DNA from: Flavobacterium sp. J49
GTDB lineage: Bacteria > Bacteroidota > Bacteroidia > Flavobacteriales > Flavobacteriaceae
DNA length: 64,000 bases
Assembly: GCF_011742145.1 (NCBI RefSeq)
Contig: NZ_JAAQQU010000104.1
Coordinates: 515,938 to 579,937 of the forward strand
Reading direction: 5' to 3'
The translations under genes and the position numbers were made by a program. Below are positions 59,250 through 62,989 of this stretch, in pieces (position 1 is the stretch's first letter; each line of letters begins with the position of its first letter). The notes under the pieces were generated by a model, which was not told the origin of the DNA, ran no database searches, and saw only the letters and a program-made list of their open reading frames with translations.

Positions 59250-60428
59250 ATGAAACTGCCAAAATCCCTTCAAGCCAAACTCGAAAAACGACAAGCCCAC
59301 AACGCTTTGCGCCAATTGCCTGTTGCCAAAGATTTGGTAGATTTTGCTTCCAATGATTACATCGGGTTTGCCCATAGCGAAACCATTTTTAACCAAACCC
59401 ATCAGTATCTCTTAGACCATAATATCAAAACCAACGGCGCCACCGGTTCCCGATTAATTTCCGGAAACCATCATTTATACGAAACCACAGAAAGTTTGAT
59501 CGCCAACTTTCACCAAGCCCAAACCGCTTTAATTTTCAATTCGGGTTATGATGCCAATGTGGGTTTCTTCAGCGCTGTGCCGCAACGCAATGATGTGATT
59601 TTGTATGACGAATTGTGTCACGCTTCCATCCGAGACGGCATCCAAATGAGTAATGCTAAAGCCTATAAATTTCAACACAATGATGTAGAAGATTTAGAGG
59701 AGTTACTTTGCAGATTCCAACCGACAACCGACAACCGACAACCGACAACCATTTACCTCGTCACCGAATCCGTCTTCTCCATGGACGGCGATTGCCCTAA
59801 CCTTGAAGAACTCGCAACCTTAGCGGAAAAGTACAACGCCTACTTAGTAATCGATGAAGCACACGCGCTCGGCGTTTTCGGTGAACTGGGTGAAGGTGTA
59901 GTGCAAAGTTTAGGGATACAAGACAAAGTCTTCGCCCGAATCATGACTTTCGGAAAAGGACTAGGCTGTCACGGTGCCGCGATTTTAGGCAGTGCCGAAT
60001 TGAAAAGCTATTTGGTCAACTTCGCCCGAAGTTTTATTTACACCACCGGTTTGTCGCCCCACAGCGTGGCCACGATTGTAGTAGCGTACCAACATTTGGC
60101 CACCGAAAAAAAAGAACTTCAAGCGTTAAGAAGCAACATCCTTTTCTTCAACCAAGAAAAACTAAGAGTAGGCTTAAAACCCATGTTTGTCTATAGCAAA
60201 TCAGCGATTCAATGCGCCATCATTCCCGGAAATGACAAAGTAAAAAGCATCGCTACCCAATTACAACAAAAAGGTTTTGACGTCAAACCCATCCTTTCCC
60301 CAACCGTTCCCGAAGGACAAGAACGCCTGCGCTTTTGCTTACACAGTTACAATTCCGAAAAAGAAATTATACAGGTCTTGGAATTGTTAGCTACTTTTGT
60401 TTTTGGAACACAGATGACACAGATTTGA
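59250..60428 (+). CDS. bioF: 8-amino-7-oxononanoate synthase with repeat insert and altered C-terminus
   Basis: This 392-residue PLP enzyme condenses pimeloyl thioester with alanine, the first committed biotin step. Motifs are FASNDYIGFAHSETIF, TGSRLISGNHHLYETTE, LVTESVFSMDGDCPNLEEL, VIDEAHALGVFG and MTFGKGLGCHGAAILG, whose Lys binds PLP. The ATG is preferred to the GTG one codon earlier. Two oddities are visible. Residues about 157 to 167 (QPTTDNRQPTT) are coded by a 7-bp tandem array. The last seven residues (GTQMTQI) and the stop codon come from the left inverted repeat of the element next to it. All catalytic motifs are intact, so the enzyme is probably active. Confidence 0.94.
   Translation: MKLPKSLQAKLEKRQAHNALRQLPVAKDLVDFASNDYIGFAHSETIFNQTHQYLLDHNIKTNGATGSRLISGNHHLYETTESLIANFHQAQTALIFNSGYDANVGFFSAVPQRNDVILYDELCHASIRDGIQMSNAKAYKFQHNDVEDLEELLCRFQPTTDNRQPTTIYLVTESVFSMDGDCPNLEELATLAEKYNAYLVIDEAHALGVFGELGEGVVQSLGIQDKVFARIMTFGKGLGCHGAAILGSAELKSYLVNFARSFIYTTGLSPHSVATIVVAYQHLATEKKELQALRSNILFFNQEKLRVGLKPMFVYSKSAIQCAIIPGNDKVKSIATQLQQKGFDVKPILSPTVPEGQERLRFCLHSYNSEKEIIQVLELLATFVFGTQMTQI
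59719..59750 (+). repeat. 7-bp tandem array inside bioF
   Basis: AACCGAC is repeated four times and followed by AACC. The complement of the unit is GGTTGTC in another phase, the same heptamer as in the atpD-atpC spacer about 1 kb away. It falls in the loop before the conserved VTESVFSMDGD strand. Confidence 0.9.
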
Positions 60429-60878
60429 CGGATTTTCAACAATTGAATTTGACAAATTTTTTTCATAAAAGACTCAGCGATGCTATATTGAAAATTTATT
60501 ATGAGGTGTATAATAATTTAGGATATGGTTTTCTGGAAAAAGTGTATCAAAACGCGATGTATTTAGAATTGAAGAATCAAGGATATAATGTTGAACCACA
60601 AAAACAAATTAAGGTTTACTATAAGGAAATGGTGGTTGGGGAATATTATAAGATTTGCTGATAGATAATACTATAATTTTAGAACTTAAAGCTTGTGAAT
60701 GTTTAATGGATGCACATAAAGCACAACTTATCAATTACTTGAAAGCAACAGATATTGAAGTTGGACTCTTATTGAATTTTGGTGAAACTCCTGAGTTCAA
60801 AAGATTTATTTATACCAATGACCGCAAAAATTTAATATAATCTGTGATAATCCGTCAAATCTGTGTCATCTGTGTTCC
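60405..60878 (+). mobile_element. 474-bp element with perfect 30-bp inverted ends around a GxxExxY gene
   Basis: The left end begins GGAACACAGATGACACAGAT and continues to base 60434; the right end from 60849 finishes ATCTGTGTCATCTGTGTTCC. The 30 bases at each end are exact reverse complements. Inside is a single, frameshifted GxxExxY-family gene. The left end lies in the 3' end of bioF and the right end touches the bioD -7 element. No target-site duplication is obvious. No transposase is encoded, so movement would need the nuclease-like product, host recombination or another element in trans. I recall similar ACACAGAT-type repeats flanking GxxExxY genes in other genomes, but not a described mechanism. 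Confidence 0.75.
60425..60840 (+). pseudogene. Frameshifted GxxExxY (PD-(D/E)XK nuclease-like) gene
   Basis: The first frame, probably from a TTG inside the left inverted repeat, codes LSDAILKIYYEVYNNLGYGF and LEKVYQNAM, with the name-giving G-x2-E-x2-Y, and stops after VVGEYYKIC. The continuing homology, DLLIDNTIILELKACECL and NYLKATDIEVGLLLNFG, is in the next frame. At the junction TAT-AA-GAT one base is missing relative to the expected tyrosine, any codon, aspartate. The break falls directly before the Asp that, with the later Glu-x-Lys (ELK), forms the PD-(D/E)XK-type site. The full protein would be about 138 residues. A single sequencing error or programmed frameshift is possible but less likely than decay. 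Confidence 0.82.
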
Positions 60879-60886
60879 TATCTTTG
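60879..60886 (+). promoter_or_regulatory. -7 element TATCTTTG of bioD
   Basis: A full TAnnTTTG match that begins at the first base after the right inverted repeat, 26 bases before bioD. Whatever -33 region it uses must lie inside the element. Confidence 0.6.
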
Positions 60887-60911
60887 CGAACTCAGCAGTT
60901 AATAAAATACC

Positions 60912-61529
60912 ATGAAAATATTCATCACAGGAATCGGCACCGATGTCGGCAAAACGGTCGCTTCAGCCATCGTAACCCAAGCCTTAAAAGCCGATTATTG
61001 GAAACCCATACAAGCCGGCGATTTAGACCATTCCGATAGTCATAAAGTAAAAACATTGGTTTCTAATGACCAATCTGTTTTTCACAAGAATGCTTATGCA
61101 CTCCACACACCGGCCAGTCCGCATTTGGCCGCGGCAATCGATGGGATTACCATCGATTTGAAACAAATCCAAGAACCTCAAACAGACAACCATTTGGTCA
61201 TCGAAGGCGCCGGAGGCGTTCTCGTGCCGCTAAATGATGCCGATTGCGTGGTCGATTTAATCCAAAAAGACTATAAAGTAATTGTCGTTTCCCGACATTA
61301 TCTCGGCAGTATCAATCATACGCTACTAACCCTCGAAGCGCTGCAAAACCGAAACATAAAAGTCGCGGGAATTATTTTCTCGGGCGATGAAAACCAAGCG
61401 ACCGAAACCATCATCCTCCATAAAACCGGAATCCATTGCATCGGACGAATCGACAACGAACCGTATTTTGACGCCAATGTAATAGGGTATTATGCCGATA
61501 AGTTTCGGGAGAATCTTTTGAGTTTATAA
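60912..61529 (+). CDS. bioD: Dethiobiotin synthetase
   Basis: This 205-residue enzyme closes the ureido ring of biotin. It begins KIFITGIGTDVGKTVASAIV with the P-loop GTDVGKT; KPIQAGDLDHSD, HTPASPHLAAAIDG and IEGAGGVLVPLND follow, all typical. It sits between bioF and bioA. The upstream element separates it from bioF and a 7-bp array begins in its stop codon. Confidence 0.95.
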   Translation: MKIFITGIGTDVGKTVASAIVTQALKADYWKPIQAGDLDHSDSHKVKTLVSNDQSVFHKNAYALHTPASPHLAAAIDGITIDLKQIQEPQTDNHLVIEGAGGVLVPLNDADCVVDLIQKDYKVIVVSRHYLGSINHTLLTLEALQNRNIKVAGIIFSGDENQATETIILHKTGIHCIGRIDNEPYFDANVIGYYADKFRENLLSL

Positions 61530-61555
61530 GAGGCAAGAGGTAAGAGGCAAGAGGC
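61528..61555 (+). repeat. 7-bp tandem array after bioD
   Basis: Four units, AAGAGGC, AAGAGGT, AAGAGGC, AAGAGGC, start within the bioD stop codon. The unit differs in sequence from the GGTTGTC arrays but has the same seven-base period. Confidence 0.85.
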
Positions 61556-61569
61556 AAAAAAAACTTTCT

Positions 61570-61577
61570 TAGCTTTG
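61570..61577 (+). promoter_or_regulatory. -7 element TAGCTTTG of bioA
   Basis: A full TAnnTTTG match 61 bases before the bioA start codon, right after the 7-bp array and an A-run. Confidence 0.5.
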
Positions 61578-61638
61578 CATTACAAATTCAGAAAGCGGTT
61601 GAGTCTTGTTTCTTGCTTCTTTCTTCTATTTTCTAAAA

Positions 61639-62910
61639 ATGACACTATCCGAAAAAGACCAACTGTACAACTGGCATCCTTATACCCAACACAAAACCAC
61701 CGGCTTATTGCCTGCCATTGTCAAAGGCGAAGGCGCTTTGCTTTGGGACGAAAACGGCAAAGAATTCATCGACGCCATTGCGTCTTGGTGGGTCAATCCG
61801 TTTGGTCATTCGAACCCAGTGATAGCCGAGGCGATTTATACGCAGTTAACGACTTTAGAACACGTTTTATTCGGCGGTTTTACCCATAACAAAGCGGTGG
61901 AATTGTCGGAGAAACTGCTCTCCATTTTGCCGGCCAACCAAAAGAAAATCTTCTATTCCGATAACGGTTCAACCGCTGTGGAAGTGGCACTCAAAGGCGC
62001 CTTGCAATACTATTACAACCAAGGGCAAAAACGCACCAAAGTCATCGCTTTGGAAGACGCGTTTCACGGCGATACCTTTGGCGCCATGGCAGCCAGCGGC
62101 ATTACTTTTTATACCGAAGCGTTTCAAGGTTCGATGTTGGAAGTCGCGCGCATTCCGGTGCCGACGAGTGGGAATGAAGAACGCAGTTTAAAAGCTTTAC
62201 AGGATTTAGTGGCGACCAATGAGTACGTTGCCTTTATCTTCGAACCTTTGGTACAAGGCGCAGCCGGAATGGTCATGTATGATGCCGAAATACTCGATAC
62301 ATTAATCGCTGTTTGTCAGCAAAATAAAGTTTTCACCATAGCCGATGAAGTCATGACAGGCTTTGGCAAAACAGGAAAAACCTTTGCGTCCGATTATTTG
62401 CAAAACAAACCCGACATCATGTGTTTGTCGAAAGCCTTAACCGGAGGAACGATTCCCATGGCAATTACCACTTTTGCCCAAGAAGTCTTTGATGGTTTTT
62501 ATAACGATGATGTCAATAAAGCGTTGTTTCACGGTCATACGTTTACCGCCAATCCCACGGGTTGTGCGGCCGCTTTGGCGAGCATCGGTTTGTTGGAAAT
62601 GCCCGAAATGCAAAACAACATCGCGCGGATTCATGCCCAACATTTGGCTTTCGCCCAAAAAATGAAAGACCATCCCAAAGTCAAAACCACTCGAGTGCTC
62701 GGCGTTATTTTTGCCTTAGAAATCAAAACCGACGGCGCCGAAAGTTATTACGGCTCGATGCGCATGAAACTCTATAATTTCTTTATCGAACACGGTGTGA
62801 TTTTACGACCGGTCGGCAATATCGTGTACATTTTACCGCCGTATATTATTTCAACGGAACAACTGGAAAGAGTTTATAAAGTAGTGGAAGAAGCGGTGGA
62901 AATGGTTTAA
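61639..62910 (+). CDS. bioA: Adenosylmethionine-8-amino-7-oxononanoate aminotransferase
   Basis: The start at MTLSEKDQLYNWHPYTQHKT is preferred; the upstream in-frame ATG would add eleven residues unlike the family. The 423-residue PLP aminotransferase turns KAPA into DAPA with S-adenosylmethionine as donor. Motifs are LWDENGKEFIDAIASWWVN, YSDNGSTAVEVALKGALQYY, DEVMTGFGKTG and MCLSKALTGGTIPMA, where the Lys binds PLP, and HGHTFTANPTGCAAALAS. It follows bioD and its own -7 element and precedes a ketoacyl synthase gene. Confidence 0.96.
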   Translation: MTLSEKDQLYNWHPYTQHKTTGLLPAIVKGEGALLWDENGKEFIDAIASWWVNPFGHSNPVIAEAIYTQLTTLEHVLFGGFTHNKAVELSEKLLSILPANQKKIFYSDNGSTAVEVALKGALQYYYNQGQKRTKVIALEDAFHGDTFGAMAASGITFYTEAFQGSMLEVARIPVPTSGNEERSLKALQDLVATNEYVAFIFEPLVQGAAGMVMYDAEILDTLIAVCQQNKVFTIADEVMTGFGKTGKTFASDYLQNKPDIMCLSKALTGGTIPMAITTFAQEVFDGFYNDDVNKALFHGHTFTANPTGCAAALASIGLLEMPEMQNNIARIHAQHLAFAQKMKDHPKVKTTRVLGVIFALEIKTDGAESYYGSMRMKLYNFFIEHGVILRPVGNIVYILPPYIISTEQLERVYKVVEEAVEMV

Positions 62911-62989
62911 ACCACAAAAGGCACAAAGAAAAGGCAAAGACACAAAGAACTCTTTTGTGGCTTTTGAATCCTTTTGATTCTTTTGTGGT
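62911..62989. repeat. Intergenic repeat of ACCACAAAAG type with inverted ends
   Basis: ACCACAAAAG at the left and CTTTTGTGGT at the right are exact inverse copies. Between them are further ACAAAG and CTTTTG units, including an internal CTTTTGTGG. It begins directly after the bioA stop codon. Sequences like it are scattered between genes in Flavobacterium genomes as I recall them. Confidence 0.6.

Follow-up and report, generated by a model that had tools for sequence, protein, structure and literature searches.

GxxExxY genes within palindromes of tandem short words: candidate partners of a REPIN-RAYT-like repeat family

Introduction

In REPIN/RAYT systems, a gene that does not spread itself lies beside a cluster of its own repeats, gene-less inverted doublets that form hairpins are dispersed through extragenic space, and a genome can have several flavors of repeat, each next to a different gene (PMC3116915). 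A second described arrangement, the 23S rRNA intervening sequence, consists of a small open reading frame within complementary ends (PMC4990558). Here we compare with these systems a 474-bp unit found in a 64,000-nucleotide stretch of DNA (the window), in which a single GxxExxY gene lies inside exact inverted repeats. We know of no role for the GxxExxY family. Linking the family to palindromes gives a common gene family a function that can be tested and might account for many intergenic repeats of one large class.

Our data indicate several likenesses to REPIN/RAYT: the GxxExxY gene lies beside its own repeat type, gene-less palindromes are dispersed, several types occur per genome, and the gene does not copy itself. 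The differences are that GxxExxY is a PD-(D/E)XK protein and not a RAYT, and that the palindromes are composed of tandem 8-12 bp words at fixed spacings. A small open reading frame within complementary ends is shared with the 23S intervening sequence and its protein S23-IVP (PF05635), but the GxxExxY protein is unrelated, the unit is intergenic (between bioF and bioD) rather than in rRNA, and the words at PF05635 genes are different and have a period of approximately 8 bp. The fold and the D..ExK and QxxxY residues are common to GxxExxY and Cas4/RecB-like nucleases (SSO0001, lambda exonuclease, MGME1), whereas GxxExxY is a single domain of approximately 125 residues that matches no PDB chain by sequence (E up to 1). 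MITEs and insertion sequences likewise comprise short elements with inverted repeats, some of which carry a gene; however, the unit has no known transposase, no target duplication was seen, and the compared set shows no recent copy at an unrelated site.

In the open-access literature, we found no description of GxxExxY genes with palindromes. The accessible part of PMC8934634 names GxxExxY and holds nothing on palindromes, and PMC12306157 has two Flavobacterium genomes in a table and, by a term search, no RAYT, nuclease, or transposase in its main text. The accessible portions of open-access papers on PDDEXK_3, DUF3841, IVP, PF13366, or the exact word strings yielded nothing on a palindrome link.

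Results

The unit between bioF and bioD

The unit lies in a row of genes that we take, from their reading frames, to be bioF, bioD, and bioA. Its features are:

60405 to 60434, forward strand: left end, three tandem inward CACAGAT-type words; perfect 30-nt arm that overruns the bioF 3' end and gives the bioF stop codon
60449 to 60840, forward strand: GxxExxY (TIGR04256) gene, PD-(D/E)XK family, with a one-base deletion near 60651; the TTG at 60449 aligns with the ATG of orthologues
60849 to 60878, reverse strand: right end, the words of the left end on the opposite strand; perfect 30-nt arm, with a fourth word inward to approximately 60839
60879 to 60900, reverse strand: relic, the right half of an older CGCAAAG-type palindrome (22 bp), directly right of the unit

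The two ends are exact inverted repeats over 30 nt, lengthen to 45 nt at 87% complementarity, and give an inverted-repeat score of 32.5. At random positions of this genome with comparable spacing, a score of 15 was reached in 4 of 3000 cases and a score of 18 in none. A first-pass annotation had proposed a mobile unit in which a lone, frameshifted GxxExxY gene, with no transposase, stands between perfect 30-bp inverted ends, and it described this structure correctly. The gene is split over two frames whose halves match TIGR04256 at 60 and 60.6 bits (cut-off 35), and GxxExxY is the sole NCBIfam match. Compared to the G355 orthologue, a single base is missing at the frameshift. The same annotation placed a usable TTG start in the left end; an in-frame TTG is indeed present within the repeat, but the start ATG of the G278 and G355 orthologues aligns with the TTG at 60449, outside it. 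The bioF frame enters the left repeat, which supplies the last bioF residues (GTQMTQI) and the stop codon. A CCGACAA-unit array also lies within the bioF coding sequence (approximately 59717-59750), where it is read through in frame.

The GxxExxY protein

G25, G27, E30, Y33, D69, E79, K81, and N110 are invariant in 94 GxxExxY sequences, and Q93 and Y97 are nearly so (at least 90% of the 94). The patterns D..ExK and QxxxY, which we take to be the catalytic motifs, are kept. A model of the G278 orthologue (pLDDT 93) found its best structure match in SSO0001, presumably a Cas4 (Foldseek E 3.6e-5; VIA Z 9.4, rmsd 5.6 over 106 residues), followed by alkaline and lambda exonucleases, RecE, MGME1, and tRNA splicing endonucleases. 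By modeled fold and conserved residues, GxxExxY is a Cas4/RecB-like PD-(D/E)XK protein with predicted nuclease activity. We found no signs of membership in the Y1 HUH (IS200/IS605-like) group: NCBIfam returned GxxExxY only, and a single histidine is among the invariant or nearly invariant residues.

The palindromes could instead work as RNA, either as mRNA hairpins that affect stability or termination or as a unit resembling an intervening sequence, with a protein that acts on RNA. The unit is placed between neighboring genes of the same strand, and the 23S rRNA intervening sequence is likewise an open reading frame within a terminal stem (PMC4990558). However, the differences between the arms show no G-U bias on the coding strand (111 compatible, 141 not), and DNA nucleases make up most of the best fold matches, with tRNA splicing endonucleases also among them. 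An Rfam search (E up to 1, six loci of this genome) returned only Flavo-1 above threshold, away from the unit, and three matches below gathering. We judge the RNA reading very improbable. The Flavo-1 RNA (RF01705, 54 bits, gathering 42) lies at L002:3181-3282, near the GxxExxY gene of that locus.

The bioF-bioD junction and its neighbors in relatives

We examined the 30 best BioD loci in the genus, and the bioF stop was within reach in 23. A full GxxExxY gene occupies the junction in five of these 23 (L202, which is the window, L203, L207, L209, and L217), and the gap is 6 bp in L206 and L227. The remaining junctions contain, as judged by eye, gene-less palindromes, half relics, or another small gene; the fuller half of a CGCAAAG-type palindrome stands alone in L214, L215, L222, and L224 (also by eye). 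Comparison of coordinates placed a GxxExxY match beside bioD in six further genomes (G005, G007, G017, G029, G030, and G051). In L212, which is outside the 23 since bioF is not within reach, a 13-bit GxxExxY fragment lies upstream of bioD (1209-1278).

Four relatives carry intact GxxExxY orthologues at bioF-bioD, with dN of 0.04 to 0.22 and dS from 0.66 to saturated. Since dN is far below dS, our data indicate that the protein is under purifying selection while resident at this junction.

The unit is missing in G264, the nearest of four relatives compared. In an alignment of 89.6% mean identity, 497 window bases (60404 to 60900) correspond to 2 bp in G264 with both flanks conserved, which is the kind of empty site that the first-pass annotation had proposed to look for. 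No target duplication is visible at the G264 junction, but in the window the palindrome relic adjoins the unit; the empty junction may reflect loss or original absence. A sequence present at bioF-bioD in all relatives with no copies elsewhere would have spoken against a mobile unit; instead, the full gene occupies five of 23 junctions and word repeats surround other GxxExxY genes.

Two more junctions beside the unit differ between the window and G264, with a palindrome in one genome that is absent or of another type in the other. The window carries the following features there:

61527 to 61627, no strand: gene-less palindrome that begins at the bioD stop and lies between bioD and bioA, with the word TAAGAGG/CAAGAGG; 119 bp of the window correspond here to 14 bp in G264
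62910 to 62989, no strand: gene-less palindrome that follows bioA and whose words resemble the ends of GxxExxY gene L003 (score 30 of 38); DNA fold z = -2.84

The palindromes at all three junctions of the window start at stop codons.

Other sequences were seen at these junctions and nearby. Another small gene, which we take to be DUF2007-like, stands at bioF-bioD in L205, L208, L210, L213, L218, L219, and L221; the L210 copy begins MEEEQFQLLRRFQYSSEALIYQGKLES, and L208 and L219 also keep what appears by eye to be the right-end scar of a unit like that of the window. A dispersed sequence, CCCTTCGACTGCGCTCAGGGTGACA, occurs near window position 887 (about 879-911) in both the window genome and G264 (L298, L301), and a relative of it, CCCTTCGACAAGCTCAGGGTGACA, follows bioA in G264 only.

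Repeats flank GxxExxY genes across many taxa

GxxExxY genes were found in 74 of 148 genomes sampled across the phylum. We pooled 182 gene matches, drawn from this genome, the genus, the phylum, and 80 named loci of other taxa; the pool counts the window gene twice (as halves, the second of which scores 8.0) and one G005 gene twice (L051_1, L179_633). For each of the 174 matches with enough flank, 200 bp upstream were aligned to the reverse complement of 250 bp downstream. A score of at least 15 for inverted repeats across the gene was reached in 114 of 174 matches compared to 141 of 2596 swapped flank pairings, and a score of at least 20 in 64 of 174 compared to 33 of 2596. Of 3000 random positions each, 4 in this genome and 8 in relatives reached 15, and none reached 18. 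A first control on 33 loci placed 0 of 33 above the 99th percentile of all swapped pairs, in our reading because orthologous loci with matching ends were among the swaps.

Direct repeats scored at least 15 at 53 of the 174 loci, 29 of which have inverted repeats too, and at scores of at least 30 they are commoner than inverted repeats (21 versus 14). Overall, 138 of 174 have a repeat in one orientation or the other at this threshold, and 36 of 174 have none at score 15 in either. Certain direct repeats are whole palindromes, or inner halves of them, that flank the gene on both sides, as at L003. Since many loci carry direct repeats, the family does not fit the description of a strict terminal-inverted-repeat transposon.

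The layout extends to named loci, many of which are metagenome bins with taxon labels as given. With enough flank in 73 of 80, a score of at least 15 was reached in 25 of 41 loci from Bacteroidota and 23 of 32 from other taxa: Cyanobacteriota (5/5), Acidobacteriota (4/4), Planctomycetota (3/3), Verrucomicrobiota (3/5), and Thermodesulfobacteriota (3/5), with one locus each in Ignavibacteriota (1/4), Pseudomonadota (1/1), and Chloroflexota (1/1). The single loci of Fidelibacterota and Nitrospirota have no inverted repeats at score 15.

The unrelated PF05635 genes have a like layout. Of 30 such loci fetched from the genus, 28 were tested, and 20 scored at least 15 compared to 60 of 756 swapped pairings. 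The layout alone thus does not require a nuclease.

Words agree within an element and follow the protein tree

The arms consist of tandem 8-12 bp words (CGCAAAG, CACAGAG, CACAGAT, and others) that read inward from both sides. Many loci repeat the same spacing at both ends, either 9/12/9 or 10/11/10 bp for four words or 8/8 for three. The words agree within an element and differ between elements. Extraction of the best word was noisy for AT-rich types, and six broad word classes were used instead for comparison with the protein tree. With 109 of 175 proteins labelled by class and 66 dropped, on a tree of few columns and many open forks, word class changes 26 times compared to a shuffled mean of 61.5 and minimum of 54 (200 shuffles). 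Within the genus alone, there are 13 changes compared to 29.2 when shuffled (minimum 24). Since ends and gene are linked, this agreement shows joint inheritance and does not yet show recognition.

The window genome itself has five GxxExxY genes (six matches, the window copy being split), and the words around them differ: CGCAAAG (L001), CGGAT/CAGAT (L002), CACAAAAGG...CACAAAG (L003), CGCAAATT (L004), and CACAGAT (window). Their inverted-repeat scores are 32.5 in the window, 27.5 in L004, 18 in L003, which has a complete palindrome on both sides of the gene, 11.5 in L002, and 10.5 in L001, so two of the five are under the threshold of 15. The first-pass annotation held that ends not shared with other GxxExxY loci would count against it. 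This is literally the case, while the kind of end is common to other loci. A search of this genome with the 30-bp end found its best other match at one gene-less site (84% over 31 bp).

The gene appears to be inherited mostly in place

We asked whether similar GxxExxY genes share their outer flanks. Among the pooled genes, 615 pairs are at least 70% identical. All 33 pairs at 89% identity or above have a homologous outer flank (one of these pairs is a gene fetched twice), as do 27 of 32 pairs at 85-89%, where four have none on either side. A homologous outer flank was found in 59 of 80 pairs at 80-85% (none on either side in 13), 46 of 155 at 75-80% (none in 74), and 35 of 315 at 70-75% (none in 198); the remaining pairs were untestable on a side, and shared flank repeats could count as homology. 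The highest pair with unrelated flanks on both sides, L036 and L164, has 88.1% protein identity, and the pooled set yielded no near-identical copies at unrelated sites. In a tblastn search with one query (E 1e-5), GxxExxY was found on 8 of 72,556 plasmid records. The genomes compared contain no transposition event, footprint, or target duplication that we could see. Judged from these sequence comparisons, the gene seems to be inherited mostly vertically, in a manner like RAYT genes and not like insertion sequences, and the gene-less palindrome is a likelier moving partner than the gene.

These data bear on the proposal of the first-pass annotation that the 474-bp unit is autonomous, with a nuclease that moves it by acting on the unit's ends. 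The ends are perfect, the unit is absent in G264 between conserved flanks, several GxxExxY genes occupy different places of one genome, and ends and gene are inherited together, all of which speaks for the proposal. Yet the outer flank is common to every pair at or above 89% identity, the five genes of this genome have ends of different sequence, plasmids rarely carry the family, intact orthologues sit at bioF-bioD in four relatives, and repeats are direct or asymmetric at many loci. We consider an autonomous unit improbable. The structure that had been called a mobile unit is real and is lacking in G264, but our comparisons do not support hopping of the gene copy as a unit. The observation was right, its explanation by a self-moving unit partly so, and the wider pattern is of greater interest than this one unit.

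Gene-less arrays accompany the gene and its clade

A fixed core pattern missed most gene-less palindromes of the window genome, and we replaced it with searches using the ends of its own genes, L002 excepted, against reversed-end controls. These returned 6 versus 0, 9 versus 1, 14 versus 5, 7 versus 1, and 6 versus 0 matches, known gene ends included. In a 464-kb sample of this genome, we found gene-less palindromes of the L001, L003, L004, and window (CACAGAT) types; the L004-type count is weak because that end is short. Arrays of 9/12 or 10/11 spacing are absent genome-wide here. Just past the window (L009, G000:C95:580309 onward; also L243), CACAGAT-type palindromes without a gene occur several times, and there is a long tandem array of AGTCTCAGTC.

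Across 61 genomes of the genus, we counted 569 arrays of 9/12 spacing compared to 2 for the reversed pattern and 237 of 10/11 spacing compared to 1 for the reversed control, the ends of GxxExxY genes being included in these counts. The 50 gene-bearing genomes hold 559 of the 9/12 arrays and the 11 without the gene hold 10 (p=0.0015). Given genome size, the partial rank correlation of array number with GxxExxY gene number is 0.46 (p=0.0002), and with PF05635 number it is 0.22 (p=0.095). Both genome size and kinship confound the array counts, and these p-values and those below ignore kinship.

Array spacing also follows the clade of the gene. The six genomes of clade A, defined by a gene at least 83% identical to L023, show enrichment of 9/12 arrays (p=0.0025) but none of 10/11 arrays (0.59), whereas ten genomes of clade B are enriched in 10/11 arrays (p=1.3e-5) and not in 9/12 arrays (0.82); the clade sets were drawn with the counts in view, and the clade B set left out G055 and G032, which belong to the same tree clade and have few arrays. 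With two own ends removed per genome, clade B taken as its core nine or as all 12 gives p=0.0003 or 0.0017, and p=0.0013 or 0.0066 when compared to the 50 gene-bearing genomes only. Clade A gives p=0.013 with two own ends removed and p=0.034 compared to gene-bearing genomes only. Removal of four own ends leaves p=0.09 for clade A and p=0.0081 for the wide clade B. G004 has the most 9/12 arrays (92), yet its nearest gene to clade A is only 66% identical.

Outside the genus, 68 genomes with the gene contain 369 arrays of both types compared to 51 in 73 genomes without it, and at least three arrays are present in 22 of 68 compared to 3 of 73 (p=0.00026). In the phylum sample of 148, genus included, reversed patterns gave 48 arrays compared to 491 true ones: 23 versus 438 in genomes with the gene and 25 versus 53 in those without, many of which are small. 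Since 25 reversed arrays stand against 53 true ones, arrays in genomes without the gene are close to background.

The gene could nevertheless be a passenger or domesticated, with palindromes that spread by slippage, recombination, or another enzyme, and with a gene that is simply linked to them or serves the host in trimming or repair of hairpin DNA. Purifying selection at a fixed site, vertical inheritance, and PF05635 genes in a like layout with other words are all as expected for such a gene. Dispersed arrays that match the clade of the gene speak against a passenger, as do the fewer arrays in genomes without it, outside the genus too. We regard a passenger gene as unlikely, though a serious alternative.

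Discussion

We propose that the unit represents, in its gene-carrying form, a repeat family resembling REPIN-RAYT but with an unrelated enzyme, and that the nuclease acts in trans on palindromes; our analysis leads us to give this reading a probability of about one half. GxxExxY would be encoded beside or inside palindromes of tandem inward words spaced about one helical turn apart. The protein would recognize its own word and spacing, probably with several subunits on paired arms at approximately 10.5 bp per word. It would then act in trans on gene-less palindromes of its own type, probably as paired or extruded DNA hairpins, and its action would help palindromes copy or relocate into intergenic sites while the gene itself remains mainly vertical. 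We infer DNA binding, DNA cutting, and a causal role of the nuclease in palindrome spread; the architecture and its spread over several phyla, the link among word type, clade, and arrays, the presence and absence at orthologous junctions, the catalytic residues, and the purifying selection are observations. The strongest arguments against trans action are the like layout of PF05635 and that no movement was observed.

More broadly, and with less confidence than an even chance, GxxExxY proteins might be the dedicated partners of a second, independently evolved class of REP-like repeats in many phyla. In such a class, a minimal Cas4/RecB-like nuclease would read short-word arrays through their sequence and helical spacing and spread gene-less palindromes in trans, and PF05635 may run a third, parallel class. 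If true, the family would provide protein clades paired with their DNA words, a natural series in which to study how a small nuclease reads DNA, and a second example for the question of how repeat-spreading enzymes come to be retained by bacteria.

Four-helix 23S_rRNA_IVP genes (L260-L289, e.g., L262, L273, and L278; G000:C95:876781) tend to lie within inverted arrays of AGTTTCTAAG, TTAGACTT, and GTTGTCGG. The CCGACAA word of the array within bioF also adjoins the IVP gene at G000:C95:876781.
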